This document shows, piece after piece, positions 25,418 to 62,228 of a stretch of 64,000 nucleotides of DNA. Source of the DNA: a virus; the IMG/VR virus record IMGVR_UViG_3300029922_000042, positions 1-64,000 of that record, one strand, 5' to 3'. A program made the position numbers and the translations under genes. Below the pieces are notes generated by a model, which made no database searches, was not told where the DNA came from, and saw only the letters and a program-made list of their open reading frames with translations. Positions within the stretch are counted from its first letter, which is position 1. Each line of letters begins with the position of its first letter.

Positions 25418-25864
25418 ATGAAAATAACTAAAAGAGGTAATAGATGGTATGACGAAAATAATAATAGTTGGATAACTGAAGAATCAGCTACTCTATACTC
25501 ACCTACCCTAACTAATTGTATATGGTGTAGAGATTGTAGTGATTGTATTAATTGTAGTTATTGTAGTCATTGTATTAGTTGTATTAGTTGTAGTGATTGT
25601 AGTTATTGTAGTGGTTGTAGTAATTGTAGTAGTTGTAATAATTGTAGTCGCTGTATTAATTGTAGTAGTTGTAGTTATTGTGTTGATTGTAATGATTGTA
25701 GAGATTGTATTAGTTGTAGGTATTGTAGAGATTGTAGTTACTGTGAATCAATTTATGATCTGAGTAATAAGATAAGTTTTGCAGCCCAATTTAAGGATAG
25801 ACAAGAACCAACTATTAGGGTGGAAATAGATATTAATGATAGAAAACTGGAACCAGATTTGTAG
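25418..25864 (+). CDS. Cys-every-third-residue repeat protein 1, with C-terminal tag
   Basis: This 148-residue protein has three parts. An N-terminal module (ITKRGNRWYDENNNSW, then TEESATLYSPTLTNC) is shared with four paralogs. A ladder of about 26 tripeptides xxC follows (SDC, INC, SYC and similar; residues ~35-112), all Cys encoded by TGT. The C-terminal segment ends in DRKLEPDL. The ladder residues other than Cys are mostly Ser, Asn, Asp, Tyr and Ile. This suggests a very regular solenoid with stacked thiols, able to bind metal or cross-link, but that is inference. It precedes SbcD. No characterised family is known to me. Confidence 0.75.
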   Translation: MKITKRGNRWYDENNNSWITEESATLYSPTLTNCIWCRDCSDCINCSYCSHCISCISCSDCSYCSGCSNCSSCNNCSRCINCSSCSYCVDCNDCRDCISCRYCRDCSYCESIYDLSNKISFAAQFKDRQEPTIRVEIDINDRKLEPDL

Positions 25865-25879
25865 TATAGTTCTTTATTT

Positions 25880-27013
25880 ATGAGTGAAAAAATAGTATTT
25901 AATTTAAACAAACCCAGCCCAACTTTTATAGCTAGTGCAGATATTCATTTAGGTAAGAAATTGTATAATTTCCCTGAACTTGAAGAAGATTTACGAGATA
26001 ATTTTGTGAGACTAGTAGAATTAGCTATTGAAAAAGATGTACGGTATTTAATTATTGCTGGTGATCTATTTGAGGATAATAATTATACCAAACCACATAC
26101 TATAGCCTTCATAGCTAAATTAGTGGCAAAATTAGCCTTACATGACATTAAACTGATAGGAATTGCAGGAGATCATGATAAGCCCTTAAAAGGTGAAGCC
26201 TGGATAAGAATTAGTGATATTCTACCAGTTACTATAGAACCATCTTTTACTGGATTGGACTATTTTGATTACTCTTATGTAACTGTCGATGAATTAGTTA
26301 CAGCTCTTACAGGAGATAAAAATCCTGAAAATATTAAGTGGATTTTCCTACATTGTCAATTTCCACAGTTATTCAAGATGGCAGAACCCAAGAAACTAAT
26401 AGATTTCAATAAACTTGAGTTATTTAAGAATTTCCCTAATTTACAAGGTATAATAGCTGGAGACATTCATTCCGGTCCTGAAACCAAGGCTTATGGTGTT
26501 AATAGAGAGGCTTATGTAGGTTATACTGGTAGTTTGGGTATAACGGATATAGCTGAGTCTAGAACTGTAAAGTCAGTGTTATATTGTGATGGAAAGAATC
26601 TAATTAGACTTCCATTCCAGCAAAGAAGAGCCTGGAAAGAAATTAATTTTCAAGGAGAGGCAGCTGTAAATTTTGATGTTTCAGCTGAGTTAGAATGGAT
26701 AAATAAAGAAAAATTTAAACCAGTTTTGAAAATAAACTGGGACAATAATAGTGACCCTTATATAAATAAATTAACAGCCTTATATGAAGCGGCATTGGTT
26801 AAATTACAACAACATCCAATTGGTTCGTTAACAAATGATGAATGTGAAGAAGTACTGACTAGTCGATCAGATATTACTACTGACGTTAAAATTGAAAAAG
26901 CTCTACATTCTTGCTGTGATGGGGATGAGGATTTATATACCTTATCTTTATCTTTGTTAAATAATGATGTCAAAGACACATTAGACCAATTTAAAGCCAA
27001 ATATGAATTATGA
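25880..27013 (+). CDS. sbcD: SbcD/Mre11-like nuclease subunit (T4 gp47 type)
   Basis: A 377-residue protein with the calcineurin-type metallophosphoesterase motifs of Mre11/SbcD: SADIHLGKK (Asp21, His23), IIAGDLFEDN, GIAGDHDKP (in place of GNHD), FLHCQFP, and GIIAGDIHSG followed by YTGSLG. With the SbcC-like ATPase at 28080 it would form the complex that processes DNA ends for recombination and repair. The replacement of GNHD by GDHD in the third motif is noteworthy. Its stop overlaps the next start (ATGA). Confidence 0.85.
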   Translation: MSEKIVFNLNKPSPTFIASADIHLGKKLYNFPELEEDLRDNFVRLVELAIEKDVRYLIIAGDLFEDNNYTKPHTIAFIAKLVAKLALHDIKLIGIAGDHDKPLKGEAWIRISDILPVTIEPSFTGLDYFDYSYVTVDELVTALTGDKNPENIKWIFLHCQFPQLFKMAEPKKLIDFNKLELFKNFPNLQGIIAGDIHSGPETKAYGVNREAYVGYTGSLGITDIAESRTVKSVLYCDGKNLIRLPFQQRRAWKEINFQGEAAVNFDVSAELEWINKEKFKPVLKINWDNNSDPYINKLTALYEAALVKLQQHPIGSLTNDECEEVLTSRSDITTDVKIEKALHSCCDGDEDLYTLSLSLLNNDVKDTLDQFKAKYEL

Positions 27014-27510
27014 GCAGGCCGGGTTATTGGAAAACAAAAGATGCTGGTGAAATACCTTATAGTATAATGGAAAATAGCCACGTTAAACATGCATTACGGT
27101 ACTTACGCAAGACTATATTAGCTACAGATACTAAGCCGAATTATAGAGTATATTGTGAAGGTAAGTTAATAGAGTTAGGAGAAGAAGCACAAAGAAGAGG
27201 TATAATTACTTCAGAAGATATAACTACTGATGCATTAATGGCTCAGATAGAGGTGTGGCAAACTGAATGGGATAGTAGACGAACTGTGATGCCAGTTATA
27301 CAAAGTTCAATTCATACTCCATCTAATATTGATTTAAGTAATATATTTAATACAATACCAACTCCTATTAGTATATATAAACCACGCATTTCAGTTATTA
27401 TAGATGTGGATAAAGAGTTAAGTAGAGTGACTGGTTTAAGAATATACAACCCTAATAAAGAATATGATGAGGGAATGTTCATTAATAGGAGATTGGATAT
27501 GGAACTATGA
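27010..27510 (+). CDS. Unknown 166-residue protein with C-terminal tag
   Basis: A soluble protein with a helical, basic N-terminal half and a beta-like C-terminal half (ISVIIDVDKELSRVTGLRIY). It ends in NRRLDMEL, which fits the octapeptide shared by eleven proteins. It overlaps both neighbours by 4 bases and so lies in one translational chain from SbcD to the Cys-repeat gene. I do not recognise the family. Confidence 0.55.
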   Translation: MSRPGYWKTKDAGEIPYSIMENSHVKHALRYLRKTILATDTKPNYRVYCEGKLIELGEEAQRRGIITSEDITTDALMAQIEVWQTEWDSRRTVMPVIQSSIHTPSNIDLSNIFNTIPTPISIYKPRISVIIDVDKELSRVTGLRIYNPNKEYDEGMFINRRLDMEL

Positions 27511-27677
27511 ACACAGATGATTATGATTTAATAGAACGGATTATTGTAGTAGGTGATCGACTAGTTAATTATATTGATTATCCTCCAGATAAATATGAAG
27601 CTAAAGCATTGGAAGATTGGAAAGAAGCTACTAGAATATTTAGATCAATTATAGAAGAAAATAAAAGAAATCTATGA
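27507..27677 (+). CDS. Small 56-residue acidic protein
   Basis: A short ORF (MNTDDYDLIERIIVVGDRL...) starting in the ATGA overlap with the upstream gene and ending in an ATGA overlap with the Cys-repeat gene downstream. It is helical and charged. The double overlap is strong evidence that it is translated. Function unknown. Confidence 0.6.
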   Translation: MNTDDYDLIERIIVVGDRLVNYIDYPPDKYEAKALEDWKEATRIFRSIIEENKRNL

Positions 27678-28069
27678 CAATAACAAAAAGAGATAATAGA
27701 TGGTATGATGAAAACAATAATAGTTGGAATACTGAAGAAGCAGCTACTATCTATTCACCTACTCTAACTAATTGTAGTAATTGTAGTGATTGTATAGGTT
27801 GTAGTGATTGTACTGATTGTAGTTATTGTAGAGATTGTAGCTATTGTAATAATTGTAGTGATTGTAGTAGTTGTAGAGATTGTATTTATTGTAGTAGTTG
27901 TATTAATTGTAGTAGTTGTAGAGATTGTAGTAATTGTAGAAGTTGTATTGATTGTAGTAGTTGTAGTAGTTGTAGTTATCATGGTGATTGGATTGATGAT
28001 AAGAAATATATACCAGAAGTTAGACCGTTTATAGATTGTAGAGATAGACTATTAGACCCTTATTTATGA
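27674..28069 (+). CDS. Cys-every-third-residue repeat protein 2, with C-terminal tag
   Basis: A 131-residue paralog of the protein at 25418. It has the same N-terminal module (ITKRDNRWYDENNNSW, TEEAATIYSPTLTNC), a ladder of about 23 xxC tripeptides and a tail RPFIDCRDRLLDPYL. The tail is identical to that of the paralog at 61821. It is translationally coupled to the small gene upstream and lies between the two subunits of the SbcCD-like complex, which hints at a role near DNA ends or in the same complex. No known family. Confidence 0.75.
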   Translation: MTITKRDNRWYDENNNSWNTEEAATIYSPTLTNCSNCSDCIGCSDCTDCSYCRDCSYCNNCSDCSSCRDCIYCSSCINCSSCRDCSNCRSCIDCSSCSSCSYHGDWIDDKKYIPEVRPFIDCRDRLLDPYL

Positions 28070-28079
28070 ATATACAATA

Positions 28080-30140: not shown

Positions 30141-30156
30141 ATAAAGTGAAAGAATT

Positions 30157-30507: not shown

Positions 30508-30514
30508 ATTAATT

Positions 30515-30742: not shown

Positions 30743-30746
30743 TTAT

Positions 30747-33255: not shown

Positions 33256-33802
33256 AAATTCGAATACTGCTTTAATAGAGGAATTTTGCTATGAATTTGC
33301 TAAACAATGTAATTATGTGCTTACTAAGAGTTTAAAAAGCCAGTTATATAATCCAGTTAGTAAAGCATTGGCTATTAGTAGAGAGTTAGAGGTAGAGCCA
33401 AAAGTCTATGTAGCAGCTCATGTCTATTTCTCTCCTTTATTAAAAGGTTATACTAAACTGACTCCAAATCAGCTGTATACTAGAGATTCCAAGACTTATG
33501 TTGAAGAATATCTTAAATTTGACAGACATATAGATAGAGAGTTTGAGACTCAATGTAGAATATTGGCTGAATGCCTGGATAATGGCTGGAAAGAAAGATT
33601 AGCTTTATTAAATTCTACTTTAGACTTTTTACCCTGGTTTAGAGTATTAATATCTACGGAAAGAGATGAAGAAATTATTAGAGTATATAGTGATGTAGCT
33701 ACTAATATGTTAAGAAATGATAAACCTCTGCTAAACTATCTTAAGACAATTAAATCAGATAGTGGTCAGGGATTGGATTTTTCAAGGTTACCTAGATTAT
33801 GA
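33245..33802 (+). CDS. Unknown 185-residue protein between primase and helicase
   Basis: An all-helical, soluble protein that overlaps the primase stop by 11 bases and the helicase start by 4 bases. No motif is recognised. Its position between the primase and the DnaB-like helicase suggests a helicase loader or primase-helicase linker, which is inference from context only. Confidence 0.55.
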   Translation: MYIENSNTALIEEFCYEFAKQCNYVLTKSLKSQLYNPVSKALAISRELEVEPKVYVAAHVYFSPLLKGYTKLTPNQLYTRDSKTYVEEYLKFDRHIDREFETQCRILAECLDNGWKERLALLNSTLDFLPWFRVLISTERDEEIIRVYSDVATNMLRNDKPLLNYLKTIKSDSGQGLDFSRLPRL

Positions 33803-36210
33803 ATGATACAAATTTTACTGAGCCTTTAACCGATGCTGATTTTTCGGAATTGTTGATTAGGCATATGCTATTATCTCCGGAAGTGAGTAATAAAGCTAAA
33901 CAATTGAATATTGTAGGAGATGATTTAGTATTGGATGATACTTATGGTAATCAAGTATATAAAGAGCTGGTAAATATCATTAATAGTATAGATGTTAGAC
34001 CAGTGCCAGCTAATACATTGTTGGATGGCTTAAAACATAAATTTGAGGATGGAACTTTAATTGATAGTTTAAAAGATAATACACTTGAACTATTTGAGTA
34101 CTTCTATAATGCAGATAGGTTGTTGGAGAGTCCTGAGTTCTTTGATAGTAGATTGTTACCTTTCCTAAAGAATAGGAGGGCACAGAAGCTTATTAATAAG
34201 TATAGGGATGATGTTCATACCTTAACCAGTGAATTAAATAAACTCAATTTAGATTTGGCTGGCGATTCTCCTATGAGCAGGCCTAGGGTGATGAATCCTT
34301 TTAGTAGTATCATATTCAAGACTAAGAGTAGTATGATAGGTACAGGTTTAAGTAAGCTGGATGAGAAGTTGGATGGTGGACTATTATCTAGTGAATATGC
34401 TATGTTGCTAGGATTTTCAGGTGGGGGTAAATGTCATGGAAAAGGTACTAAAATATTAATGTATGACGGTTCAATAAAGAATGTTGAAGATATTAAAGTG
34501 GGTGAATTACTAATGGGTAATGATTCAACATCTAGAGAAGTACTTAGTTTGGCTAGGGGTAGTGAGCAAATGTATAAGGTAATTCCTGTTAAGGGGGAAC
34601 CTTGGACTTGTAATGAATCTCATATCCTTAGTTTAGTATGTAATACTCAATGTGGTTTTGGTTATCAATATGGTAAGGGAAATATAGTTAATATGACAGT
34701 TAAGGATTATTGTGCTCTAATAAGAACTAAGAAAGATTGTCTTAAATTATATCGAATTGGTGTTGATTATCCTGTTAAACCTTTGAATATGGACCCGTAT
34801 ATCTTCGGTTGTTGGATAGGAGATGGAACACGAGCAGCACCGAAGATTACAAATACTGATCCAGAAATTATTAGTGTAATGATGGAATGGGCTAAAATCA
34901 ATAAATATAAGGTCAGACAGTATGATATTACTTATTGTTTTAGTAGAAAACCTGAAATAAATATATTTCGTAATGAAATAAAAAGAGCTAATGGTAATAA
35001 TCAAAAGAGAATTCCTAGTGATTATTTGATTAACTCTGAAAGTAATAGGTTGCAGTTATTAGCTGGTATTATAGATACTGATGGATATCTACATCATAAC
35101 TTTTATGAAGTTGTAACTAAGTATGAAGGTTTGAGTCAAGATATTCTTTATTTAGCTAGAAGTTTAGGGTTCGCAGCATATAGTTATCCTAAAATAGCTA
35201 CTATGAAAAGAGAGGATGGATCAATATACAGATGTAAAGTATATAGAGTTAATATAAGTGGACACGTAAATAAAATTCCATGTAAAGTTATTAGAAAGCG
35301 GGCTGGGATAAGACAGCAGATTAAAGATGTATTACATGTTGGTTTTACTGTTGAGCCTATAAACGATAGAGATTATTATGGTTTTGAATTATCAGGTAAT
35401 CATCTTTATCTTTTGGGGGATTTTACAGTAACACATAATACAGCTGTAGGTACTAATATGGTGGGTATATCTGCGGAAATGGGTAGAAAGGCGGTTTATA
35501 TATCTTGTGAAGAGCATGAAGATGATTTAAGCCAAAGATTCTATTCCAGAGTATTTAGAATACCATATAGACAATTAAGACAAGGTAGTGCTAATATAGA
35601 ATTGGAATCAAAGTTTAATGAAGAATTAACTACTGAGAAAATAAAATTTTTAAAAGATAATCTCTGTTTAATGGGTTTAAAGGGGATTGATGGTGCTATA
35701 ACTCCTAATCTGCTATATGAATTGTTAAAACAAAACTATGAAGAAACTGGTTTTATACCAGAACTAGTAATGCTAGATCAATTACAATTCATAACTCCAG
35801 ATGCACCTATAAGAAAGAATATGCAGACTTATGAGATTGAAGGTATGACTGCAGCTGAGTTAGACCAATTATCACATAAACAAATAGGTGGTAAAGGATT
35901 TGTATTGTGGGTACAGCATCAAGCTAAAGGCAAGACTAGGGCATATTTTACTATAGATGAAATTCAAGGTTATAAAGCAATAGTAAATAAGCCAGACTTG
36001 GTTTTAGGTGTAGGCAGAGCTGGTGATAAAAGTGATGAGATAAACTTGTTTCCTTTAAAAATAAGACATTCAGCTGACTTTAAAATAACTCTTAAGACTG
36101 AATTTGAATATATGACAGTAACATCCACGTTAGTTACTAATGACTTACCATATCAAAATTCTACCATGACAGAAGTAGATCGTACTGGTATTAGACCAGT
36201 CACTTATTAA
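33799..36210 (+). CDS. dnaB: DnaB-like replicative helicase containing an intein
   Basis: The ORF is 803 codons. Removing an internal intein (residues 212-547) leaves a 467-residue DnaB-type helicase, the usual size. The N-terminal helical domain is followed by GLSKLDEKLDGGL and Walker A GFSGGGK/T, split by the intein between Lys and Thr. Next come VYISCEEHEDDL, VMLDQLQF (Walker B), WVQHQAKGK and IRHSADF. It would be the ring helicase that drives the phage fork with the primase encoded upstream and the polymerase at 36632. Splicing is needed to restore the ATPase site. Confidence 0.88.
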   Translation: MNDTNFTEPLTDADFSELLIRHMLLSPEVSNKAKQLNIVGDDLVLDDTYGNQVYKELVNIINSIDVRPVPANTLLDGLKHKFEDGTLIDSLKDNTLELFEYFYNADRLLESPEFFDSRLLPFLKNRRAQKLINKYRDDVHTLTSELNKLNLDLAGDSPMSRPRVMNPFSSIIFKTKSSMIGTGLSKLDEKLDGGLLSSEYAMLLGFSGGGKCHGKGTKILMYDGSIKNVEDIKVGELLMGNDSTSREVLSLARGSEQMYKVIPVKGEPWTCNESHILSLVCNTQCGFGYQYGKGNIVNMTVKDYCALIRTKKDCLKLYRIGVDYPVKPLNMDPYIFGCWIGDGTRAAPKITNTDPEIISVMMEWAKINKYKVRQYDITYCFSRKPEINIFRNEIKRANGNNQKRIPSDYLINSESNRLQLLAGIIDTDGYLHHNFYEVVTKYEGLSQDILYLARSLGFAAYSYPKIATMKREDGSIYRCKVYRVNISGHVNKIPCKVIRKRAGIRQQIKDVLHVGFTVEPINDRDYYGFELSGNHLYLLGDFTVTHNTAVGTNMVGISAEMGRKAVYISCEEHEDDLSQRFYSRVFRIPYRQLRQGSANIELESKFNEELTTEKIKFLKDNLCLMGLKGIDGAITPNLLYELLKQNYEETGFIPELVMLDQLQFITPDAPIRKNMQTYEIEGMTAAELDQLSHKQIGGKGFVLWVQHQAKGKTRAYFTIDEIQGYKAIVNKPDLVLGVGRAGDKSDEINLFPLKIRHSADFKITLKTEFEYMTVTSTLVTNDLPYQNSTMTEVDRTGIRPVTY
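34432..35439 (+). mobile_element. Intein (336 residues) with LAGLIDADG homing endonuclease in DnaB Walker A
   Basis: It begins with Cys212 directly after GGGK and ends in THN, with Thr548 as the first residue of the C-extein. The N-terminal splicing block is CHGKGTKILMYDGSIKNVED. ESHIL fits block B. Two LAGLIDADG-type helices are YIFGCWIGDGT and LLAGIIDTDGY. The C-terminal blocks are YYGFELSGNHLYLLGD and TVTHN. The terminal His-Asn and the +1 Thr fit a standard splicing mechanism. Insertion in the P-loop of a replicative helicase is a typical homing site. Confidence 0.9.
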
Positions 36211-36215: not shown

Positions 36216-36635
36216 ATGGGAGAAACACTTAATGAAGATACCTTATACTATTTCTTATGCCCATTTAAGGATAGGTACTATACGTTATATTTAGGCTGGT
36301 TGAATAAGATACTAATTGAAGCTTTTAGGAAGTTGGGTGAGGAAGAGGGACATATTTATATACAGAGTGAATTTGAACAACATACTTTCATTAATTATAT
36401 AGACCAGCCCCTTTTCCTCATCGAATTTGATAAAGAAGGCATTGAGAAGTATTATAGTGATGACCATGAATTAGAATTAGAGCCGGAAGAAGGAGAGGTT
36501 TATAAAGATAATGAACCTGACACTATTAATTATCCAGCTTACTTTACTAAAGGTATTGAATCACTTCTAGATTATAAATTAGGCAAACATTTATATGCTA
36601 ATGTAGAAGGAGAATGGATACAGATAAAATTATGA
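36216..36635 (+). CDS. Unknown 139-residue acidic protein
   Basis: A very acidic protein, with runs of Glu and Asp around residues 80-105, and aromatic-rich segments. No motif is recognised. It lies between the DnaB-like helicase and the DNA polymerase and overlaps the polymerase start (ATGA), so it is probably a replication-associated accessory protein. Confidence 0.55.
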   Translation: MGETLNEDTLYYFLCPFKDRYYTLYLGWLNKILIEAFRKLGEEEGHIYIQSEFEQHTFINYIDQPLFLIEFDKEGIEKYYSDDHELELEPEEGEVYKDNEPDTINYPAYFTKGIESLLDYKLGKHLYANVEGEWIQIKL

Positions 36636-39370
36636 TGACAATTGATGAATTTTTAACAGAATATAATACATATAGAGTAGCTGGAGCTTCATTTATACAA
36701 CCTTCAGGAGATCACGAAGCCAAGTTGATGTTAGTTCTTAGTTATCCTAGTTATGATGCTCTACAAACTGGTAACTTATTAGCTGGGGATAATGGTGATG
36801 AACTTAAAGCAGCCCTGGATTTGGCCGGCTTTCAAGAATCTGATTATTATTTAACTGCTATGGTTAAATTTGATGTAGGTTCAGCCGGAAAGCCTACTAA
36901 ACAGATGATTGAACAATGTAGCGGTGTACTGGATTTTGAGATTAAAACAGTTAAACCTAGATTGATCCTTACTTTAGGAGCTGAGCCGTTTAAAAGGATT
37001 AAGAAAGAGAAAAGCAAGGTTACTAGTTATTTAGGCAATATTATAGATTGTCCTTATGACTGCAAGCTGTTACCTAACTATTCTCCTGGAATGATAGTTG
37101 GCCAGGACCCTACACTAAGGTCTGCATTTAGAGAGGTGTTTACTCTAGCTAAAAGATTTATAGAAGATAAGCTGGATTATACTAGATATGATAAACTAGT
37201 AGTAGATGACCCTGAATTAAGTAAAGTTATTATACAAGAATATATAGATAAGAAGGCATTCCTAGTAGGTTATGATGGAGAATGGAAGGGGAAGAAGATG
37301 ACTGATGATGAGGTCATGTATACTTTTCAGTATTCTTGTGAACCTAATGTAGCTATTGTATTGGATATTTCAAAAGATGGTGTAACTGAGAATAAAGAAT
37401 TACTTGATACAGTAAAGCCATTATTAGAACATCCACAAGTACAAAGAATGGGTTGGAATATTAGAGTTGATGATGAAAGGCTTAAATTGAGAGGGTTTAA
37501 TTTATCTGATGACACTCTATTCTTTGATGGTATGAAAGCTTGTGGATTCTTAGATAGTAGGTATCCTAAAGGTCTAGAAACTGGTATTAAGTACTTCACT
37601 AACTATAAACCTTATTATAAAGAGATGCCAGATCTCCTCAAAAAGCATGGGTTGAAGTGGGAAGAGTTAGCCCAATTAAAGTTATTAGAGCCTGATTTCT
37701 TTTATGAGTATTGTGGTGGTGATGCAGTAGCTCATAGGACTGCTTGTTTAGCTATGAAGGAAAGTATGGATAAGTTACCAGAGAAAGTAAGAACTTACTT
37801 TTATAATACATATCTACCTTTAACTCATTATTTCATGGATTTGGAGTTAGCTGGGATACCTATAGATTTGGTGAAAATGGAAGAAATGACTAATCAATAT
37901 GTATCTAAATATGAAGAACTTAAAGATATATTAAAAACTAGATTAACTGGTATCTTCCCAGATTTTAATCCAGCTAGTGCACCTCAAAAGAAGAAGTTAT
38001 TATATCAAGTACTCGGTTTAGCCCCAGCCTTTTATACTAAAAAAGGAAAGATTAAACCCAGAGCTTGGTACGATCAACAAAAAGCAGGTACAAAGAAGCA
38101 TTATTCTCCTAGTACTAATAGTAAATCATTAAGTACTATATGTTTCGATCTAGAGAAGGAATTGGAAAAACCACAACCAGATAACTTAATACAGGATAAA
38201 TATATTATAGTTAAGAATCTATTAGATTTAACTAGAGTAGGAGTATTTGCTACTAAGTTCTTGTGTAAAACTGGTACTGAGTTTGAAGAAATAGATGAAG
38301 CAGATCTGGAAGGTGATGCTGACGAGGATGCCAAAAAGAGTTCATATTGGGCGGCTATTTGTAAAGATGGCAAGATTCACCCAAGTTTTTATGAATGCTT
38401 GGATAACTTTAGAAGTAGTAGCAAGCCTAATGTACAGAATCCAGCTTCCAAAGTGTTAAGTAATATCCCTAATATATTTGTGCCTGGTTATAGTTTAATG
38501 AGTAAAGATGACCAAAAGAAGAATTATCATCTAATACCAAGTAATCTTAGACATATATTCTATTCCGGGGACCCTGATTGGTATTGGGCTGAGATCGACA
38601 TAGCCAGTGCCGACCTCGGAATATTAGCATTCCTAAGTAAAGACCCTAAATATATAAATGACATTCTTAGTGGTGGATTTCATTTAACCAAAGCTAGAGA
38701 GTATTTCCAAGACCCAAATGTAACTAAAAACGATTATTCTAAATATGTGTCAGCAAAGTCTATTACATTTAGAGTATCATACACTTCAGAACTATTAGCT
38801 GCCTCAATGCCTATTCAAGCAGAGATTTATGCAGAAAGTGGCATTTATCTACCTATTCAACGTATCGAATATGCTTTGAAGACATGGGAGCAATATACAC
38901 AATATATGGAGTTTAGGAAGCAATGTATGCAGCAAGTAGAAGAATATAAGTATATAGAGAATGCTAGAGGTTTAAAATACCATTTCGAAGATAGTGATGA
39001 CTTTAGAATATTGGCTGGTTGGAAGAATGAAAGTTTGGCTTTTCCACCTGCTAGTGAATTAGCATTGTTTATGTGGGATATATGTGTAACTATGAAACGT
39101 TATCTAGTTAAAGAAGGGGTCTGGATGAAGTGGATTAAACCAGTAAATAGTGTTCATGATGCTGCATATTATCTTGTACATAAAGATGTTATGAAAGATA
39201 ATTGGTTTCCTGAAGTTTGTAAGAACTACTTTACTAAAGAATGTAAAATAGCTACTGGTGATACTTTAGGAATGGAAATGTCAGTAGGAGATAGATGGAA
39301 ATGTAAGGAGGAGGCTTTTCATGGGGAGACGGTCTGGGACTTCAATAATAAATGCTGGAATTGGAAATAA
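36632..39370 (+). CDS. Family A DNA polymerase with N-terminal uracil-DNA-glycosylase-like domain
   Basis: The start is placed at ATG 36632 or 36635, overlapping the upstream stop; a longer ATG at 36614 is possible. The N-terminal ~180 residues resemble the UDG superfamily (LMLVLSYPSYD, TAMVKFDVG, PRLILTLGAEPFK, LLPNYSPG). A 3'-5' exonuclease follows (LVGYDGEWKG, MGWNIRVDDERL, YCGGDAVAHR). The polymerase domain has motif A AEIDIASADLG, motif B KSITFRVSYTSE and motif C NSVHDAAYY. Motif C has Ala where Glu is usual (VHDE), and motif A has Asp for Glu, so the active site is divergent although both metal-binding Asp remain. SPO1-type phage polymerases also carry a UDG-like domain. It is the replicative polymerase of this phage. 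Confidence 0.85.
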   Translation: MMTIDEFLTEYNTYRVAGASFIQPSGDHEAKLMLVLSYPSYDALQTGNLLAGDNGDELKAALDLAGFQESDYYLTAMVKFDVGSAGKPTKQMIEQCSGVLDFEIKTVKPRLILTLGAEPFKRIKKEKSKVTSYLGNIIDCPYDCKLLPNYSPGMIVGQDPTLRSAFREVFTLAKRFIEDKLDYTRYDKLVVDDPELSKVIIQEYIDKKAFLVGYDGEWKGKKMTDDEVMYTFQYSCEPNVAIVLDISKDGVTENKELLDTVKPLLEHPQVQRMGWNIRVDDERLKLRGFNLSDDTLFFDGMKACGFLDSRYPKGLETGIKYFTNYKPYYKEMPDLLKKHGLKWEELAQLKLLEPDFFYEYCGGDAVAHRTACLAMKESMDKLPEKVRTYFYNTYLPLTHYFMDLELAGIPIDLVKMEEMTNQYVSKYEELKDILKTRLTGIFPDFNPASAPQKKKLLYQVLGLAPAFYTKKGKIKPRAWYDQQKAGTKKHYSPSTNSKSLSTICFDLEKELEKPQPDNLIQDKYIIVKNLLDLTRVGVFATKFLCKTGTEFEEIDEADLEGDADEDAKKSSYWAAICKDGKIHPSFYECLDNFRSSSKPNVQNPASKVLSNIPNIFVPGYSLMSKDDQKKNYHLIPSNLRHIFYSGDPDWYWAEIDIASADLGILAFLSKDPKYINDILSGGFHLTKAREYFQDPNVTKNDYSKYVSAKSITFRVSYTSELLAASMPIQAEIYAESGIYLPIQRIEYALKTWEQYTQYMEFRKQCMQQVEEYKYIENARGLKYHFEDSDDFRILAGWKNESLAFPPASELALFMWDICVTMKRYLVKEGVWMKWIKPVNSVHDAAYYLVHKDVMKDNWFPEVCKNYFTKECKIATGDTLGMEMSVGDRWKCKEEAFHGETVWDFNNKCWNWK

Positions 39371-40243: not shown

Positions 40244-40245
40244 TT

Positions 40246-54423: not shown

Positions 54424-54696
54424 ATGATTGCTGATATTTATGCTTTTTCTAGAGATGGATTTAGACATGATACTTTTCAAAATTTTTTAAACGGTGATTT
54501 TCATGGTGTGTTTCAGTTTGACCGGTCTACTATACCACCATATAATCTGTTTAAAGTATCAATCAATTTAGATGATTATGATATAAGTTGTGGACCTGGT
54601 GTTGTATATAATCATACTGTCTTACATTTTAGAAAGAAAACTATAAACTCCAGACCTGCAGAAAGTGGTGAACGGAGGCTTGAACCTTATTTATGA
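54424..54696 (+). CDS. Unknown 90-residue protein with C-terminal tag
   Basis: A small protein beginning 9 bases after tRNA-Glu, with an aromatic-rich N-terminal half (FRHDTFQNFLNGDFHGVFQF) and a beta-like second half. It ends in GERRLEPYL, a member of the shared octapeptide. It overlaps the next gene by 4 bases. No known family. Confidence 0.6.
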   Translation: MIADIYAFSRDGFRHDTFQNFLNGDFHGVFQFDRSTIPPYNLFKVSINLDDYDISCGPGVVYNHTVLHFRKKTINSRPAESGERRLEPYL

Positions 54697-54962
54697 ATGA
54701 ATATATAGTAGGAGATGAAGTTTCTGTAACTCTTAATTCTGGTAATCGAGTTAAAGCAAAGATTATAAGTATTGATAATGACGAGCTTGCACTAAAGTTT
54801 GTAGAGTATACAGAGCTTGTAAACATTGATGCAAGCGGTGGTTCAAGCGGTGGTTCAGGCGGTTGGCCTACTATTCATAGACACATAAATGAGGTAATCT
54901 CTTTAGTATCTAAAACTAGAAAAGAAAATCCTTTTGATAGGAAACTGGAGTTTGATTTATGA
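54693..54962 (+). CDS. SH3/KOW-like small protein with Gly-Ser linker and C-terminal tag
   Basis: An 89-residue protein. Residues 1-45 look like a small beta barrel (YIVGDEVSVTLNSGNRVKAKI, then LALKFVEY). A flexible GGSSGGSGG linker follows, then a helical end and the tag FDRKLEFDL. The linker-tag arrangement looks like a folded head attached to a docking peptide. It is coupled to neighbours on both sides by 4-base overlaps. Confidence 0.62.
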   Translation: MNEYIVGDEVSVTLNSGNRVKAKIISIDNDELALKFVEYTELVNIDASGGSSGGSGGWPTIHRHINEVISLVSKTRKENPFDRKLEFDL

Positions 54963-55426
54963 AAATAACAAAAATAGCTAATAGATGGTATGACGAAAAC
55001 AATAATAGTTGGTCTACAGAAGAACTAGCTACTCTATACTCACCTACCCTAACTAATTGTAGATGGTGTAGAGATTGTAGAGATTGTAATTATTGTTGTC
55101 TTTGTAGTGATTGTAGTAATTGTAGTAATTGTAGTGGTTGTAGTGGTTGTAGTGGTTGTAGTAATTGTTATAATTGTAATTGGTGTAGTAGTTGTGGTAG
55201 TTGTAATAGTTGTTATAAATGTACTGATTGTAATGATTGTAGAGGTTGTAGTAATTGTAGTAGTTGTTATAGTTGTAGTTATTGTGGTAATTGTAAAGAT
55301 TGTTTTCACTGCTATTTATGTAAAATTTGTAGTAACCTTAGATTTTATGAAAAAGGATCACAATTAAATACTATTATAAGAGTGGAGGCTAATGCTTTTG
55401 ACAGAAAATTAGAAATAGACTTATGA
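54959..55426 (+). CDS. Cys-every-third-residue repeat protein 3, with C-terminal tag
   Basis: This 155-residue paralog has the N-terminal module ITKIANRWYDENNNSW and SPTLTNC, about 31 in-register xxC tripeptides, and a tail ending in FDRKLEIDL. One extra Cys occurs (NYCCLC). The upstream neighbour ends in the near-identical FDRKLEFDL although the two proteins are otherwise unrelated. It is coupled to both neighbours (ATGA). No characterised family. Confidence 0.75.
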   Translation: MKITKIANRWYDENNNSWSTEELATLYSPTLTNCRWCRDCRDCNYCCLCSDCSNCSNCSGCSGCSGCSNCYNCNWCSSCGSCNSCYKCTDCNDCRGCSNCSSCYSCSYCGNCKDCFHCYLCKICSNLRFYEKGSQLNTIIRVEANAFDRKLEIDL

Positions 55427-55733: not shown

Positions 55734-56156
55734 ATGGAACAACTATATAAAAAGACAAAAAAGAACGGTAAGACTAAATATGCTAAGGTAAATTTAAAAG
55801 ACTTGGCTGATAATTTACTAGTTGATAGAATGACTCTAAGCCCAGGTCTTTGGCTGGTTAAAGAAGTTCCTAATTGTAAGTCATTAAGTTCAGTTTCTAA
55901 AGTATCTAGAATACCGGATTACCCCTACGATTTTACTAGTATAATCATGAATCGTGACGAACTGGCCGATTTCCTCGTCAAATTTAACAATGATTATTCT
56001 AAAAAACATCCTAGCTCAGGGAATGGATGGCAAATATTTCCGAGTTATTCCGAACTAGCTGAGGCTATTTTAAATGAATTGATTAGACTGGCTGGCCTAG
56101 GATTTGGTGAAAAGCGAGAAGTACCTGTAACTAGAAAATTAGATTTAGAGTTATAA
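55734..56156 (+). CDS. Unknown 140-residue protein with C-terminal tag (family of three)
   Basis: A mixed alpha/beta protein. GLWLVKEVPNCKSLSSVSKV, then IPDYPYD, correspond to GIYLVKPLPN...SIISKL...YPDKPE in the next gene, so the two are paralogs. A helix near the C-terminus (ELAEAILNELIRLAGLGF) is also shared. It ends in VTRKLDLEL. No known family. Confidence 0.6.
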   Translation: MEQLYKKTKKNGKTKYAKVNLKDLADNLLVDRMTLSPGLWLVKEVPNCKSLSSVSKVSRIPDYPYDFTSIIMNRDELADFLVKFNNDYSKKHPSSGNGWQIFPSYSELAEAILNELIRLAGLGFGEKREVPVTRKLDLEL

Positions 56157-56157
56157 T

Positions 56158-56598
56158 ATGGCAGACCTATACTATAAAGTTGGAAAAAGATATAGAGTAG
56201 CTTTATCTGATGTAAGTGAAGGAGCTATGACAACATTTTTATCAGAAGATGGAATAAGACCTACCTTTCTAACTATAGGAAATTTGGAGGCAGGTATATA
56301 TTTGGTAAAACCACTACCTAATACTACTTTAGTGAGCATAATCTCTAAACTAGCTAAATATCCGGATAAACCTGAATTACTGGCTCAAATAAAAGTTACC
56401 CAGTCTGAAATGGAATATTTTATTGCTGAGTATAGAAGAACTAGGATTACTAGAATAGGAACTGATACATTAAGTAATCAAGAAATAGCCAAGGTTATTT
56501 TTGATTATCTTATAGCTAAATCTGGTATTAAATTTTCGGAGAAGCCGGTTGAAAAAGTTGAACATATAGTAGAACGAAAACTAGAACTGGATTTATAA
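56158..56598 (+). CDS. Unknown 146-residue protein with C-terminal tag, paralog of 55734
   Basis: A protein sharing the LVK..PN..L.S..SK....PD.P block and the C-terminal helix (QEIAKVIFDYLIAKSGIKF) with the upstream gene. It ends in VERKLELDL. The stop is directly followed by tRNA-Ala. A third, shorter relative lies after the next two tRNAs. Confidence 0.6.
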   Translation: MADLYYKVGKRYRVALSDVSEGAMTTFLSEDGIRPTFLTIGNLEAGIYLVKPLPNTTLVSIISKLAKYPDKPELLAQIKVTQSEMEYFIAEYRRTRITRIGTDTLSNQEIAKVIFDYLIAKSGIKFSEKPVEKVEHIVERKLELDL

Positions 56599-56599
56599 C

Positions 56600-56671
56600 G
56601 GGGCTATAGTGATAATAGTAGCACGGAAGTTTTGCAAACTTCAGGACACAGAGCGTAACTGTGTAGTTCCA
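56600..56671 (+). tRNA. tRNA-Ala (UGC)
   Basis: Acceptor GGGGCTA/TAGTTCC includes the G3-U70 pair that identifies alanine tRNA. D-arm GTG/CAC. Anticodon stem GAAGT/ACTTC, loop TTTGCAA (TGC). The T-stem CACAG/CTGTG has a non-canonical loop AGCGTAA. CCA is not encoded. It starts 2 bases after a stop codon. Confidence 0.75.
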
Positions 56672-56675
56672 ATCC

Positions 56676-56749
56676 GGTCTGGAAGCATTAAAGTGATGCA
56701 GAGAACTCTTAATTCTCAGAATAGGGAGCGTTACCCTAGCAGACCACCA
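56676..56749 (+). tRNA. tRNA-Lys (CUU)
   Basis: Acceptor GGTCTGG/GCAGACC (last pair mismatched), D-arm GCAT/ATGC, anticodon stem GAGAA/TTCTC with loop CTCTTAA (CTT). The T-stem TAGGG/CCCTA has the same unusual loop type, AGCGTTA. ACCA is encoded. Confidence 0.75.
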
Positions 56750-57025
56750 ATTAAAACGAATGATCAAATTGAACATGTAGAACTTATTACTATACCTCTG
56801 CCTATAGTACTAGAAATAGTAAAGGAGTATATAGAAGCTAAATATAATCTAACTGGTGGAGAAATATTTTTAAGAAAACAAAAAGGACCAACACCTGCTA
56901 CAGGATATATGAAACTAAATGAGCCTGAATTGTATGATTTAAAATATAGAACTGTTGCAACACAAGCTGATATACATAAAGATTTATCAGAATTGCTGGA
57001 AAGAAAGTTAGAAATTGATTTGTAA
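56696..57025 (+). CDS. Truncated third paralog of the 55734/56158 family, overlapping tRNA-Lys
   Basis: The frame is open from 56609 through both tRNA genes, but the only upstream ATG outside tRNA-Ala is at 56696, inside tRNA-Lys. The true start may be a non-ATG codon after 56749. The part after the tRNAs (ELITIPLPIVLEIVKEYIEAKYNLTGG) corresponds to the C-terminal helix region of the two upstream paralogs. It ends in LERKLEIDL. The N-terminal half of the family appears to be replaced by tRNA sequence. It may be expressed as a short tagged protein or be a decaying gene. Confidence 0.45.
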   Translation: MQRTLNSQNRERYPSRPPIKTNDQIEHVELITIPLPIVLEIVKEYIEAKYNLTGGEIFLRKQKGPTPATGYMKLNEPELYDLKYRTVATQADIHKDLSELLERKLEIDL

Positions 57026-57031
57026 GTCATT

Positions 57032-57108: not shown

Positions 57109-57120
57109 ATTTAATAATTT

Positions 57121-57206: not shown

Positions 57207-57218
57207 AACCAAAACAAA

Positions 57219-57476: not shown

Positions 57477-57491
57477 TATAGTATAGTGACA

Positions 57492-58481: not shown

Positions 58482-58528
58482 ATGAGTTATATTACCACTA
58501 TCCACTCCAAACTAGCAACAACGATTAT

Positions 58529-58604
58529 GCTCTATTAATGTAAGGGTTAGCAATGCCGACCTGTCACGCCGGAAGAACGGATTCGAGTTCCGTATAGAGC
58601 GCCA
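58529..58604 (+). tRNA. tRNA-Asp (GUC)
   Basis: Acceptor GCTCTAT/ATAGAGC, discriminator G as in other tRNA-Asp, CCA encoded. Anticodon stem CCGAC/GCCGG with one mismatch, loop CTGTCAC (GTC). T-arm ACGGA/TCCGT, loop TTCGAGT. Confidence 0.88.
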
Positions 58605-58614
58605 CTAAAACAAA

Positions 58615-59139
58615 ATGACAATAACTAAAAGAGACGATAGATGGTATGATGAACGAGGTAATAGTTGGAGAACAGAAGAATCAGCTACTACATACTCACT
58701 TACCCTAATTAATTGTAGAGATTGTAGTAATTGTAATAATTGTATAGGTTGTAGTAGTTGTAGTAGTTGTAGTGGTTGTAATAGTTGTAGTGGTTGTAGT
58801 ACTTGTTATAATTGTAGTGGTTGTAGTGCTTGTAATATTTTTAATTATTGTCATGATTGCAGTAGTTGTTTTAATTGTTATAGTTGTACTGATTGTAGTA
58901 ATTGTAGTGATTGTAATTATTGTAGTCGTTGTAGTGATTGTAGTAGTTGCAGTAATTGTATTGATTGTAATATTTGTAGTGATTGTAGTTATTGTAGTAG
59001 TTGTAGTAGTTGTACTAACTGTAATCATTGTGAATTGTGTGGAAAATTAGTTGATCAAAAGTTTCAAGAAAAGATTAAAGACCCATTAATTAGGACAGAG
59101 TTTAATGTAGAAAACAGGTTACTAGAACCAGACTTATAA
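58615..59139 (+). CDS. Cys-every-third-residue repeat protein 4 (longest), with C-terminal tag
   Basis: This 174-residue paralog has the N-terminal module ITKRDDRWYDERGNSW and SLTLINC, then about 36 xxC tripeptides with one interruption (NIF in place of xxC). The tail ends in ENRLLEPDL. It starts 10 bases after tRNA-Asp. It is the longest of the five ladders, so the number of tripeptides varies from 23 to 36 between copies. Confidence 0.75.
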   Translation: MTITKRDDRWYDERGNSWRTEESATTYSLTLINCRDCSNCNNCIGCSSCSSCSGCNSCSGCSTCYNCSGCSACNIFNYCHDCSSCFNCYSCTDCSNCSDCNYCSRCSDCSSCSNCIDCNICSDCSYCSSCSSCTNCNHCELCGKLVDQKFQEKIKDPLIRTEFNVENRLLEPDL

Positions 59140-59143
59140 ATTT

Positions 59144-59425
59144 ATGCAGTTAATTGAACAAACAATACTAGACTATATTGTAAAACCTGATAAACTTGAA
59201 ACTAAGTTGTCTCATATTATTGGATTTAATATAGTCAAAAACAAGCTATCACCAACCTCAATCAAATGTGTTACTACAATACTAGAACAGGAAAAGGATG
59301 CAGTGGATTATTTTACTGTTCATCCATATACTAGGCTAGGTTGTGATAATACCAATTATGATAGGCAAAATGATTCTTTGTACCAATCACCTAACCAATT
59401 TCGTTACTTAACATACACTGATTAA
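59144..59425 (+). CDS. Unknown 93-residue protein
   Basis: A soluble, helical N-terminal half and a polar C-terminal half rich in Tyr and Asn. It lies 4 bases after the Cys-repeat gene and overlaps the Cas4-like nuclease start (TAATG). No motif recognised. Confidence 0.5.
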   Translation: MQLIEQTILDYIVKPDKLETKLSHIIGFNIVKNKLSPTSIKCVTTILEQEKDAVDYFTVHPYTRLGCDNTNYDRQNDSLYQSPNQFRYLTYTD

Positions 59426-60198
59426 TGACCTGGCGCTTCTCACATTCAAGTATAGGAAGTTACAAGCAATGTCCTAAGAAGTATGAACTTACCTACCTTC
59501 AAAAAGGTAAAGTACAAAAAGAGGATACAGTTGAACTATTCTTAGGAAAAAGGGTGCATGAATGTTTAGAAGTATTATATCACTATGCTAATTTAGGCAA
59601 TACCTGGCTTTTAAAAGATTTGACTGATCTATTTATCGTTTTATGGGAAGAGAAATGGAATAATGATATAAAGATAGTTAGATTCGGCCTACCTGCTCTA
59701 CATTACCTTGATTTAGGTATAAAACAACTAACTGACTACTATAATAAGTATCATCCTTTCAACCAACACAAATCCCTGAGTTTAGAGCAGAAGCTATATT
59801 TTAATTTAGCCCAAGATGAAAAGTATGTAATGTCTGGAGTAATTGATAGGATAGAAGAAATTGAGCCTGACTATCTAGCTATTCATGATTATAAGACTGG
59901 TAAGAATATGATGAGTCAGAAAGAATGTGACTCAGACCGACAACTTGCTACTTATGCTATTGGGGTTTTAAATAAATATCCTGCTACTCAAAAAATTGAT
60001 TTAGTCTGGCATTATCTACTATATAATGTTGAAGTTGTATCTAGTAGGACTGCTGAACAATTAGAAAAGTTAAAGGTTGAACTGATAACAGATATTGATA
60101 CTATATCTAAAGCTGTTACAGATAATAACTTCAAAACTAATATATCACGTTTATGTGATTGGTGTGAAGTTAAGAAATTTTGTCCTGCTCACAAATAA
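59425..60198 (+). CDS. Cas4/RecB-like PD-(D/E)XK exonuclease with probable Fe-S cluster
   Basis: A 257-residue protein. The N-terminus has FSHSSIGSYKQCPKKY (first cluster Cys). The middle has GKRVHECLE, then MSGVIDRIEE (Asp) and AIHDYKTGK (the D-x-K pair), followed by DRQLATYA (QxxxY). The C-terminus has CDWCEVKKFCPAH, providing three more Cys. This is the layout of Cas4/AddB-type nucleases with a 4Fe-4S cluster. There is no CRISPR array in the window, so a role in phage recombination or DNA-end processing is more likely. Confidence 0.8.
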   Translation: MTWRFSHSSIGSYKQCPKKYELTYLQKGKVQKEDTVELFLGKRVHECLEVLYHYANLGNTWLLKDLTDLFIVLWEEKWNNDIKIVRFGLPALHYLDLGIKQLTDYYNKYHPFNQHKSLSLEQKLYFNLAQDEKYVMSGVIDRIEEIEPDYLAIHDYKTGKNMMSQKECDSDRQLATYAIGVLNKYPATQKIDLVWHYLLYNVEVVSSRTAEQLEKLKVELITDIDTISKAVTDNNFKTNISRLCDWCEVKKFCPAHK

Positions 60199-60203
60199 TT
60201 TTA

Positions 60204-60279
60204 GGCTGTATAGTGAAAGTGGATATCATACAATTCTTCTAAATTTGAGTTCCTGGTTCGATCCCAGGTACAGCCACCA
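60204..60279 (+). tRNA. tRNA-Arg (UCU)
   Basis: Acceptor GGCTGTA/TACAGCC with ACCA, D-stem TGA/TCA, anticodon stem CAATT/ATTTG (one mismatch), loop CTTCTAA (TCT). T-arm CCTGG/CCAGG, loop TTCGATC. Confidence 0.85.
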
Positions 60280-60343
60280 TTTTAAAACCGAAGCCGTTGA
60301 ACTTCATTAAATCTTCAACAAACAACAAATAAACACTAACTAT

Positions 60344-60886
60344 ATGAATAAAGTACCTATTACTAAAACCGCCCTACAAGCACTTTCAACTCCTACTAAA
60401 GATGTGATTGACAAGGCTTCACCACTAATTAAACGCTTTGCTGAAATTATCATGGGTTATTATAGCCCTGAAGAACCAGCTGTTTTTGAGTCTGAAGGAG
60501 ATAAGACAGTCCAAGCTTTGTTTGATAAATGGCCTAAAGATGATACTACTTTGCGGCTAGCTGAATTGACTGAGGCTATTTACGGATATAAGCCTGTTGT
60601 TAAAGATAATAAGACGATTAAATTTGGAGAATTGATTAAGTACAATAGTGACGTCTATGTAACTGTGCATAGTGATAGTAATAGTTTTTATGTTGCTTCA
60701 GTGAATGGAGCAAATTGTCTACGTCTATATCCAAATAATGCTATTAATAAAGTTACGGCTGCTGAAGCTGGTATTTTTGTTAAAGAATTCTTGAAAGTTA
60801 AACCTAGTATATTACTTACTACGCTAGGTAAGGTAGCTATCAGTATTGTTTTAGAGTTTTTGGAACAGGTTGGAGATAATATTTAA
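60344..60886 (+). CDS. Unknown 180-residue protein
   Basis: A soluble alpha/beta protein with no recognised motif. It has a strong A/C-rich leader (CAACAAACAACAAATAAAC) like other apparently highly expressed genes in this window. It lies between tRNA-Arg and tRNA-Asn. Confidence 0.55.
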   Translation: MNKVPITKTALQALSTPTKDVIDKASPLIKRFAEIIMGYYSPEEPAVFESEGDKTVQALFDKWPKDDTTLRLAELTEAIYGYKPVVKDNKTIKFGELIKYNSDVYVTVHSDSNSFYVASVNGANCLRLYPNNAINKVTAAEAGIFVKEFLKVKPSILLTTLGKVAISIVLEFLEQVGDNI

Positions 60887-60892
60887 TCTAGT

Positions 60893-60968
60893 TGGTGTGT
60901 AGCTCAATTGGTAGAGCAATCGATTGTTACTCGATAGGTTCTTGGTCCGACTCCAAGCACACCAGCCA
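60893..60968 (+). tRNA. tRNA-Asn (GUU)
   Basis: Acceptor TGGTGTG/CACACCA, discriminator G, CCA encoded. D-arm GCTC/GAGC, anticodon stem ATCGA/TCGAT with loop TTGTTAC (GTT). T-arm CTTGG/CCAAG, loop TCCGACT. Confidence 0.92.
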
Positions 60969-61034
60969 ACATTTGCTAGGTAGTTTAATATTATGTGTTA
61001 TAATGATGACTTCAATAGACTATCTGCTAGCGTA

Positions 61035-61114
61035 GTTGCGACCCATTATTAAACGCACTTGTAAAACCACAGCTTTCTAAGCTGTTGATGTCGTGTCAAG
61101 AACGACCCTGGCTG
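61035..61114 (+). tRNA. Possible aberrant tRNA (UCU-type anticodon arm)
   Basis: A good anticodon arm (ACAGC-TTTCTAA-GCTGT, 61069-61085) and T-arm (GTCGT-GTCAAGA-ACGAC, 61090-61106) are correctly spaced. The following CCTGGCT has no convincing 5' acceptor partner (AGTTGCG near 61034 pairs only with wobbles and a mismatch), and the D-arm is oversized. It may be a degenerate or rearranged tRNA. Confidence 0.35.
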
Positions 61115-61121
61115 TCAATTT

Positions 61122-61304
61122 ATGAATGAACAACAACGTAAGAAAAAACTAGTAGATGTAATAAATCTGGTTGATGATGAACTTAGACTAGTTATCAAAG
61201 CAACTTATGCTAAAGAGCGTACAACTGAGGAAAGACTAGCAATTGCAGATATAATAGAGGCTCAAGGCCGACTATTAGATGCACAGTCACGTCTCGAAAA
61301 ATAA
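61122..61304 (+). CDS. Small 60-residue charged protein
   Basis: A helical, highly charged protein (VDDELRLVIKATYAKERTTEER) with coiled-coil character. It lies between two tRNA genes. Function unknown. Confidence 0.5.
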   Translation: MNEQQRKKKLVDVINLVDDELRLVIKATYAKERTTEERLAIADIIEAQGRLLDAQSRLEK

Positions 61305-61309
61305 ACTTT

Positions 61310-61386
61310 TGCGGGAGGGTAGGTTAGATCTACAGAAGTCTCATAAGCTTCTTTAAACTAGGTGCAATTCCTAGTCTCCGCACCCA
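61310..61386 (+). tRNA. tRNA-Met (CAU)
   Basis: Acceptor TGCGGGA/CTCCGCA (one mismatch) and CCA, D-arm GTAG/CTAC, anticodon stem GAAGT/GCTTC with loop CTCATAA (CAT). T-arm CTAGG/CCTAG, loop TGCAATT. The 5' part resembles initiator tRNA, but CAU could also belong to elongator Met or a lysidine-modified Ile tRNA. Confidence 0.82.
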
Positions 61387-61393
61387 TTTAAAT

Positions 61394-61819
61394 ATGAACC
61401 ATAACCTTTGTCCTAACTGTAATAATACTGGAAAATATCTTGAATACTTTGATTCTTTCTATTGTCCTGACTGTGATAACTGGCTTGAACCAATTTGTGA
61501 GGATAAAGAATGTAGATATTGTAGTGATAGGCCGGAAAAGCCTAGTTTACAATTTTTACCTAATAAAAAGACTTATTCTGACTTAATAGGTGATTTAATG
61601 GAATATAATCATTTCGTAGCTCTAACCGTATCTGGTTCTATAATAACTGAAGATGGTTATGTCGAATCTGTATTTATTGATGGTATTCATAGACCGGAGA
61701 TATATATTGAGGGTGGCTGGACATTGGAACCGGATAGTAAATTTTATAAACACTACGAATTATTAGAGTTGGGTAAAGCATTTCCTGATAAGGTAATTCA
61801 ATTAGAATGGTGTACCTAG
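61394..61819 (+). CDS. Zinc-ribbon-containing protein, unknown
   Basis: A 141-residue protein. The N-terminus has four Cys pairs (CPNCNNTG, YCPDCDNW, CEDKECRYC) typical of zinc ribbons. The rest is an acidic domain with many aromatic residues. It could be a nucleic-acid-binding or adaptor protein. It precedes the fifth Cys-repeat gene by 1 base. Confidence 0.55.
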   Translation: MNHNLCPNCNNTGKYLEYFDSFYCPDCDNWLEPICEDKECRYCSDRPEKPSLQFLPNKKTYSDLIGDLMEYNHFVALTVSGSIITEDGYVESVFIDGIHRPEIYIEGGWTLEPDSKFYKHYELLELGKAFPDKVIQLEWCT

Positions 61820-61820
61820 T

Positions 61821-62228
61821 ATGACAATAACTAAAAGAGACGATAGATGGTATGATGAACGAGGTAATAGCTGGGATACTGAAGAAGCAGCTACTTTATA
61901 CTCACCTACCCTAACCGATTGTACTAATTGTTATAATTGTTATAGTTGTACTAATTGTAGTCATTGTAGTAGTAGTTGTATTAATTGTAAAGATTGTAGT
62001 AGTTGTAGAGATTGTTATAATTGTAGTAATTGTAGTAGTTGTAGAGATTGTTATTATTGTAGTAATTGTATTAATTGTAATAGTTGTAGAAGATGTAGTC
62101 GTTGTGATAGCTGTAGTGATTGTAGTGAGTGTATTGGTTGTAATGACTGGACTAATAATAAGAAATATGAACCAGTAATTAGACCATTTATAGATTGTAG
62201 AGATAGACTATTAGACCCTTATTTATGA
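61821..62228 (+). CDS. Cys-every-third-residue repeat protein 5, with C-terminal tag
   Basis: This 135-residue paralog has the N-terminal module ITKRDDRWYDERGNSW and YSPTLTDC, about 25 xxC tripeptides with one slipped step (SSSC), and the tail RPFIDCRDRLLDPYL. That tail is identical to the paralog at 27674, 34 kb away. The N-terminal module is closest to the copy at 58615. It overlaps the next gene by 4 bases. Confidence 0.75.
   Translation: MTITKRDDRWYDERGNSWDTEEAATLYSPTLTDCTNCYNCYSCTNCSHCSSSCINCKDCSSCRDCYNCSNCSSCRDCYYCSNCINCNSCRRCSRCDSCSDCSECIGCNDWTNNKKYEPVIRPFIDCRDRLLDPYL

Follow-up and report, generated by a model that had tools for sequence, protein, structure and literature searches.

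Why do eleven otherwise different proteins of one phage stop immediately after nearly the same eight residues? We addressed this question for a window comprising bases 1 to 64,000 of the 85,671-base virus record IMGVR_UViG_3300029922_000042, which belongs to a large soil phage. A preliminary description of this window had placed a shared C-terminal octapeptide (DRKLEPDL and variants) on eleven proteins ending between positions 25864 and 62228, and we found all eleven where it had put them, letter for letter. The octapeptide is a true C-terminal tag, driven neither by DNA nor by homology. With moderate confidence, we regard it as this lineage's version of a docking motif belonging to a module of a classic AAA+ ATPase and a DUF3150 protein, grafted onto about 48 proteins that would serve as adaptors or clients.

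The record and IMG/VR contigs of 151 and 127 kb overlap with 100% identity, and these three contigs give an assembly of ~212.6 kb for this phage. Two motifs were used, a strict one, R[KRL]L[ED].[DEY]L, and a loose one, R[KRLN][LI][ED].[DEYF]L. In window open reading frames (ORFs) of at least 30 amino acids, the strict motif matched 11 times, always at the C terminus (11/11), with no other copy. Six-frame translation of the 85,671-base record gave 27 strict matches, 26 of them immediately preceding a stop codon, and revealed further carriers beyond the window. Over ~212.6 kb, 38 of 338 ORFs ended in the strict motif and 44 of 338 in the loose one, and 49 of 50 six-frame matches to the loose motif abutted a stop codon. 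The preliminary description had reasoned that a motif equally common inside proteins would speak against a tag; called genes held no internal copy of either form (65,454 residue positions). The comparison with shuffled C termini that it had proposed was equally clear, since putting the 20 C-terminal residues of every protein in random order gave a mean of 0.009 matches (maximum of 1 in 2,000 shuffles) against the 44 observed. A weight matrix added probable degenerate carriers, namely, DRNLDPNL, RRLDFDEL (on a DUF3150 protein), RRLDFGDL (on a WGR-like protein), and DRALDPFN (on an AAA ATPase), bringing the total to about 48. Arg is invariant in the 31 unique tags, and a second conserved piece, R-x-[EFD], is common ~13 to 15 residues before the C terminus of carriers. 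When IMG/VR was searched with the DNA pattern of the tag, dense clusters appeared only in the contigs of this phage; other matches were isolated and chance-like, mostly without an ORF.

A DNA-level feature, such as a translational overlap, a ribosome-binding site, or a recombination sequence, might encode such a peptide by chance. In its favor, 33 of 44 tags overlap the following gene by ATGA, and two orphan tags that lack a gene body (record positions 73901 and 74847; L001:9901 and L001:10847) each immediately precede another gene. These look like deletion scars; in strain G005, which is about 98% identical to the window phage, one of the two sits on an intact SH3-like gene. However, the conserved Arg, Leu, and Glu/Asp positions of the tag are encoded with the same codon preferences as the genome at large (AGA, AGG, CGA, CGG, and CGT for Arg; TTA, CTA, TTG, CTT, and CTG for Leu), indicating that selection acts on the peptide, and this codon diversity by itself refutes a DNA artefact. 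As the preliminary description had argued, gene overlap cannot account for the motif: carriers that do not overlap the next gene retain it entirely, for example, the one ending at 57025, upstream of a tRNA gene. Unrelated phages have the motif with different codons and gene orders, and Rfam and tRNA scans detected no RNA elements at tag sites. We consider a DNA-level origin extremely improbable.

Common descent of the carriers likewise fails to explain the tag. With the tag removed, the carriers formed about two dozen BLAST clusters and, allowing for remote similarity among SH3-like carriers, roughly a dozen or more unrelated families, so they are not one homologous family, the outcome that the preliminary description had named as fatal to its proposal. 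It had counted six window carriers without Cys repeats; of these, the proteins at 55734 to 56156 and 56158 to 56598 are homologous to each other. Most carriers are (Cxx)n Cys-repeat proteins or SH3-like proteins of 72 to 97 amino acids; the AlphaFold2 model of the SH3-like family had low confidence (predicted local distance difference test [pLDDT] score of 60). Two Cys-repeat proteins of this phage are untagged, one terminating in a membrane-helix-like segment where the tag would be and the other in a domain that Cys-repeat proteins of other phages also have. As these alternative C termini show, the tag is a module for attachment that can be exchanged. Outside this phage, Cys-repeat proteins have no tag, and hence the tag is not a property of the Cys-repeat family. 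That family appears to be widespread in phages, and hypothetical proteins of Campylobacter phages CPt10, CP220, and CP21 weakly match its N terminus.

Comparison with G005 showed how carriers differ between strains. Locus by locus, the bodies of the Cys-repeat proteins are 48 to 86% identical, and their last 16 residues hardly differ. In G005, a block of SH3-like genes has given way to other genes that likewise terminate in tags, and the carrier at 65856 to 66167 is frameshifted. The preliminary description had also asked whether relatives keep the proteins and lose the motif; this strain retains the tags. The Cys-repeat genes (window positions 25418 to 62228 and L041-L042) are hypervariable, with N termini and repeats apparently shuffled between paralogues.

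A candidate reader is encoded in the window itself. The preliminary description had singled out a near match, RRLDFDEL, at 23775; it proved to be a degenerate tag at the end of a DUF3150 protein (positions 22789 to 23775; C terminus TRRLDFDEL) whose gene stands two genes after that of a classic AAA+ ATPase. The DUF3150 protein scored 40.7 bits against a Pfam cutoff of 24.9 (PF11348; 2.2e-10), also exceeding the cutoff in the whole-record search. When eleven DUF3150 proteins were aligned, 7 columns were invariant, among them that of the motif Arg. The ATPase, which has Walker A and B motifs and which we take to be Ycf46-like, is encoded in two parts. Its N-terminal part (20349 to 21269) is interrupted within Walker A, and its C-terminal part (21561 to 22331) matches PF00004 (1.3e-30) and an AAA lid domain (2.9e-9) and ends in RRTEGNGEDRALDPFN, a degenerate tag; no peptidase domain was found on it. 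Two further proteins recur in such modules and are candidate receptors, a DUF1257-like protein (24160 to 24552), which lies slightly under the Pfam cutoff (20.1 versus 22.2 bits) and clusters with the MSH... neighbors of other AAA genes, and a DUF2997 protein (24933 to 25139; 7.8e-10). All of these genes are on the plus strand. The insert of ~290 to 300 bases that splits the ATPase gene inside Walker A (..GVLLAG / IPGTGKTAIAK..; 21270 to 21560) has boundaries that satisfy group I intron rules (exon ending in U, insert ending in G); it matched no Rfam family.

Both proteins bear related tails in other phages. AAA homologues in uncultivated phages end in KRRVQL, KRSLEV, RSINLN, RKLKLN, and similar peptides, and the adjoining DUF3150 proteins end in YKRMIDLS, KRSLEF, RDIEL, RKLTF, or RALDF. 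We described these tails by a general core, R-x-[LIV]-x-[LIVMF], which was defined after the sequences had been inspected, so that comparisons with control stretches, other genes, and permutations carry the weight. At the 52 loci with both genes, the core occurred in the last 20 residues of 45 DUF3150 proteins and 38 AAA proteins, and in none of the control stretches of either (0/52 for each; for DUF3150, the 20 residues just before). Among representatives at 70% identity, 26 of 37 DUF3150 proteins and 19 of 54 AAA proteins ended in the core, compared with 49 of 1,258 other genes of the same loci. The AAA representatives had the core in 22 of 33 cases where DUF3150 was in the locus and in 2 of 21 where it was absent (Fisher P = 5e-5). 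In its basic form, an AAA protein and a DUF3150 protein whose tails match, the module is widespread among uncultivated phages. When an AAA homologue was modelled with AlphaFold2, its tail was unstructured (pLDDT of about 41 at residues 468 to 479); it is therefore not predicted to be bound in cis and would be free to dock in trans.

Tails also match within genomes. Each lineage has one to three additional proteins with the same tail as its AAA and DUF3150 proteins (e.g., RRILI/RRILI), and the whole contigs of five AAA/DUF3150 phages encode three to four tagged proteins each; phages other than the window phage and its relative G021 have 3 to 5 carriers. An unrelated family of 83 to 94 amino acids has tails such as IRAILLD, IRRILID, and IRAVVLN; in 5 of 6 phages, these agree at all four variable core positions with the tail of the DUF3150 protein from the same genome. 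Two module neighbors are tagged as well, a family of 151 to 216 amino acids (family-16) that ends in KRKLTF alongside a DUF3150 protein ending in KRKLTF, and a uracil-DNA glycosylase (UDG)/3′-5′ exonuclease protein with the tail RRKLSF (in phages of the L187/L193/L209 group). Within loci, the BLOSUM score between DUF3150 and AAA tails was 6.70, against 4.39 ± 0.46 after permutation, a value reached in 0 of 5,000 permutations. The closest relative of the window phage is G021, which has the same replication genes and an AAA protein that is 57% identical. Six unrelated proteins of G021 end in R[RKY]I[QS][LI], where 0.23 would be expected; the window phage, with its about 48 carriers, is the extreme case of such amplification. 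A 244-kb phage with a related AAA protein and no DUF3150 (G022) had no tags, and the second half of the Aeromonas phage HJ05 genome showed no convincing common tail.

Tails that differ between lineages and match within each are expected from a single phage-encoded receptor per genome. The earlier idea of a docking tag with one phage partner fits these matching tails; its suggested partners (sliding clamp, capsid, or compartment import) gained no positive evidence, and the evidence points instead to the AAA/DUF3150 module, both proteins of which bear the motif in dozens of distant phages. Since these two proteins are the constant carriers and AAA has its tail in dependence on DUF3150, the receptor most likely lies in the module, and the recurrent, untagged DUF1257-like and DUF2997-like proteins are candidate receptors too.

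Besides the post hoc definition of the core, several observations weigh against assigning the tag to this module. Of the AAA representatives accompanied by a DUF3150 protein, about a third are without the motif, and the matching of DUF3150 and AAA tails within genomes is partly due to shared ancestry. The DUF1257-like and DUF2997-like proteins were present in only 39 and 24 of 56 loci, respectively. The G021 contig fragment has no detectable DUF3150 despite its tags, which argues against DUF3150 as the sole receptor. The only cultured phage with a DUF3150 match (a weak one), Tunturi_3, has no clear tag, and the whole genome of Catdawg, read for a common tail, gave none that was convincing, only a vague likeness. 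Finally, tail constancy between strains was rejected as evidence, since strains that are 98% identical keep their tails anyway.

Other readers of the tag have to be weighed against the module. A replisome hub such as the sliding clamp could bind it and tether the carriers to phage DNA. Like the tag, the β-clamp-binding hexapeptide is short, hydrophobic (L-x-L/F), in many cases terminal, and acidic at one position; moreover, the UDG/exonuclease protein of the L187/L193/L209 group and the WGR-like protein of the window phage are tagged, and Catdawg, with its related AAA protein, encodes a β clamp. Yet the β-clamp-binding motif has a conserved Gln followed by a hydrophobic pentapeptide, whereas the tag has no conserved Gln at any position and an invariant Arg, and its carriers here are not replication proteins: the UDG-polymerase, primase, helicase, and RecA-like protein of the window phage are untagged, and it is AAA and DUF3150 that carry the tag most consistently. 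No clamp was seen among those phage proteins that were scanned, in an annotation that is incomplete. Taken together, these points make a clamp unlikely. Alternatively, since the tag is C-terminal and its module includes a protein with the classic AAA unfoldase fold, it might be a degron that hands early proteins for timed removal to a protease, either one of the host or one that uses the phage AAA protein as its unfoldase; C-terminal degrons are established for ClpXP. On that account, AAA and DUF3150, being tagged, would themselves be destroyed, the AAA protein has no detected peptidase domain, and lineage-specific matching within phages misfits a host reader; we find a degron distinctly unlikely.

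Tagged accessory genes that vary between strains also recall the internal proteins of T4, in which hypervariable small cargo carries a constant signal, and a packaging signal loading cargo into the head would, like the T4 capsid-targeting sequence or the encapsulin cargo-loading peptide, place one short signal on diverse proteins. However, the T4 signal is N-terminal and cleaved by the prohead protease, whereas all matches in called genes are C-terminal and unlike it in sequence; no structural gene is tagged, no capsid link was found, and the AAA and DUF3150 proteins that bear the motif in many phages are not known virion proteins. Equally improbable, in our estimate, is a localization or self-assembly signal by which carriers gather on a host structure or on each other with the ATPase as a passenger. 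The Cys-repeat protein with a membrane helix in the tag's place fits such a signal, but tails differ from lineage to lineage, and its reader would have to differ along with them. A comparison for the module itself is offered by AAA+ rings whose own tails dock. The fold of the phage AAA homologue is nearest to the remodelling ATPases p97/Cdc48, NVL, and Rix7, and proteasomal and p97/Cdc48 ATPases have C-terminal tails with the HbYX motif, the p97 tail being bound by PUB/PUL domains. There too, a short, free C-terminal peptide of a classic AAA+ ring docks in a partner's pocket. The phage tags are not HbYX motifs (hydrophobic-Tyr-any at the extreme C terminus), as they end in [DEYF]L and only 4 of the 31 unique tags have Tyr at -2; they have the form R-x-hydrophobic-x-hydrophobic and occur also on DUF3150 and on many unrelated proteins.

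We therefore return to docking on the AAA/DUF3150 module, where the tag probably plugs its carriers into an uncharacterized ATPase machine. We infer that the module reads the tag, which component holds the pocket, and that carriers are adaptors or clients. The module would consist of the classic AAA+ ATPase and DUF3150, usually with small proteins of the DUF1257-like and DUF2997-like kinds. The free tail, whose motif lies near the carboxylate, would be bound by a pocket of this complex, most likely on DUF3150 or DUF1257. In the window phage, the tail has been grafted chiefly onto hypervariable Cys-repeat and small SH3-like proteins, whose heads may bind host or phage targets; the tail would deliver these to the ATPase, which would remodel or extract the bound target. 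More tentatively, it is possible that some four dozen fast-evolving small proteins plug through an eight-residue tail into an ATPase with one socket, giving it changeable recognition heads. Poxviruses offer a comparison in ankyrin/F-box proteins, variable repeat proteins with a constant C-terminal F-box that is bound by a host ubiquitin ligase (PMC9414399). In both systems, a constant C-terminal piece would connect the targets of variable repeat proteins to one machine; the F-box is folded, whereas the phage piece is a peptide of 7 to 8 residues, and the comparison concerns how the systems work, not homology.

The eleven window carriers are all encoded on the plus strand. Cys-repeat proteins occupy 25418 to 25864 (DRKLEPDL; phrog_15341, 1.4e-15), 27674 to 28069 (DRLLDPYL), 54959 to 55426 (DRKLEIDL), 58615 to 59139 (NRLLEPDL), and 61821 to 62228 (DRLLDPYL). 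Between SbcD-like and SbcC-like genes lies an orphan protein of 166 amino acids (27010 to 27510; NRRLDMEL), and the corresponding place in G021 is taken by a protein with the tag SRKIQL. An orphan protein of 90 amino acids (54424 to 54696; ERRLEPYL) is followed by a small SH3-like protein (54693 to 54962; DRKLEFDL). The latter had been described as carrying its tag behind a Gly-Ser linker, but the Gly-Ser stretch is internal, about 30 residues upstream of the tag. The two homologous carriers noted above have 140 (TRKLDLEL) and 146 (ERKLELDL) amino acids, and an orphan of 138 amino acids (56609 to 57025; ERKLEIDL) precedes a tRNA-Lys gene with no translational overlap.

Other genes of this phage are also split or fused. 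A DnaB-like helicase gene (window positions 33799 to 36210) is split by an intein with a homing endonuclease (Hom_end_hint, LAGLIDADG). At 36614 to 39370, a UDG domain is fused to a family A DNA polymerase, whereas the L187/L193 phages encode the UDG/exonuclease part on its own, as a tagged protein. Split multisubunit RNA polymerase β/β′-like genes lie at L028:10816-13155, L028:15485-17206, and L035:11764-14559, one of them with a homing-endonuclease-like insert. Neither cultured phages nor genome contigs yielded a near relative in searches with the DNA polymerase, DUF3150, and Cys-repeat proteins.

In the literature searched, there was no paper on DUF3150 and no description of the AAA/DUF3150 module. 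The principle of a short docking peptide is already known; what is new is the machine with its tag and the amplification of that tag, as they match no described system that we found and the tag belongs to none of the nearest known motifs. These observations offer an initial clue to what DUF3150 and its AAA partner do. They indicate that a common tail can link unrelated proteins of one phage, so that membership in a machine can be read from C termini in uncultivated phages. If the carriers are indeed adaptors, the system would be a bacterial-virus counterpart of variable substrate receptors arranged around one machine, with heads that diversify fast between strains, as expected of host-facing proteins.

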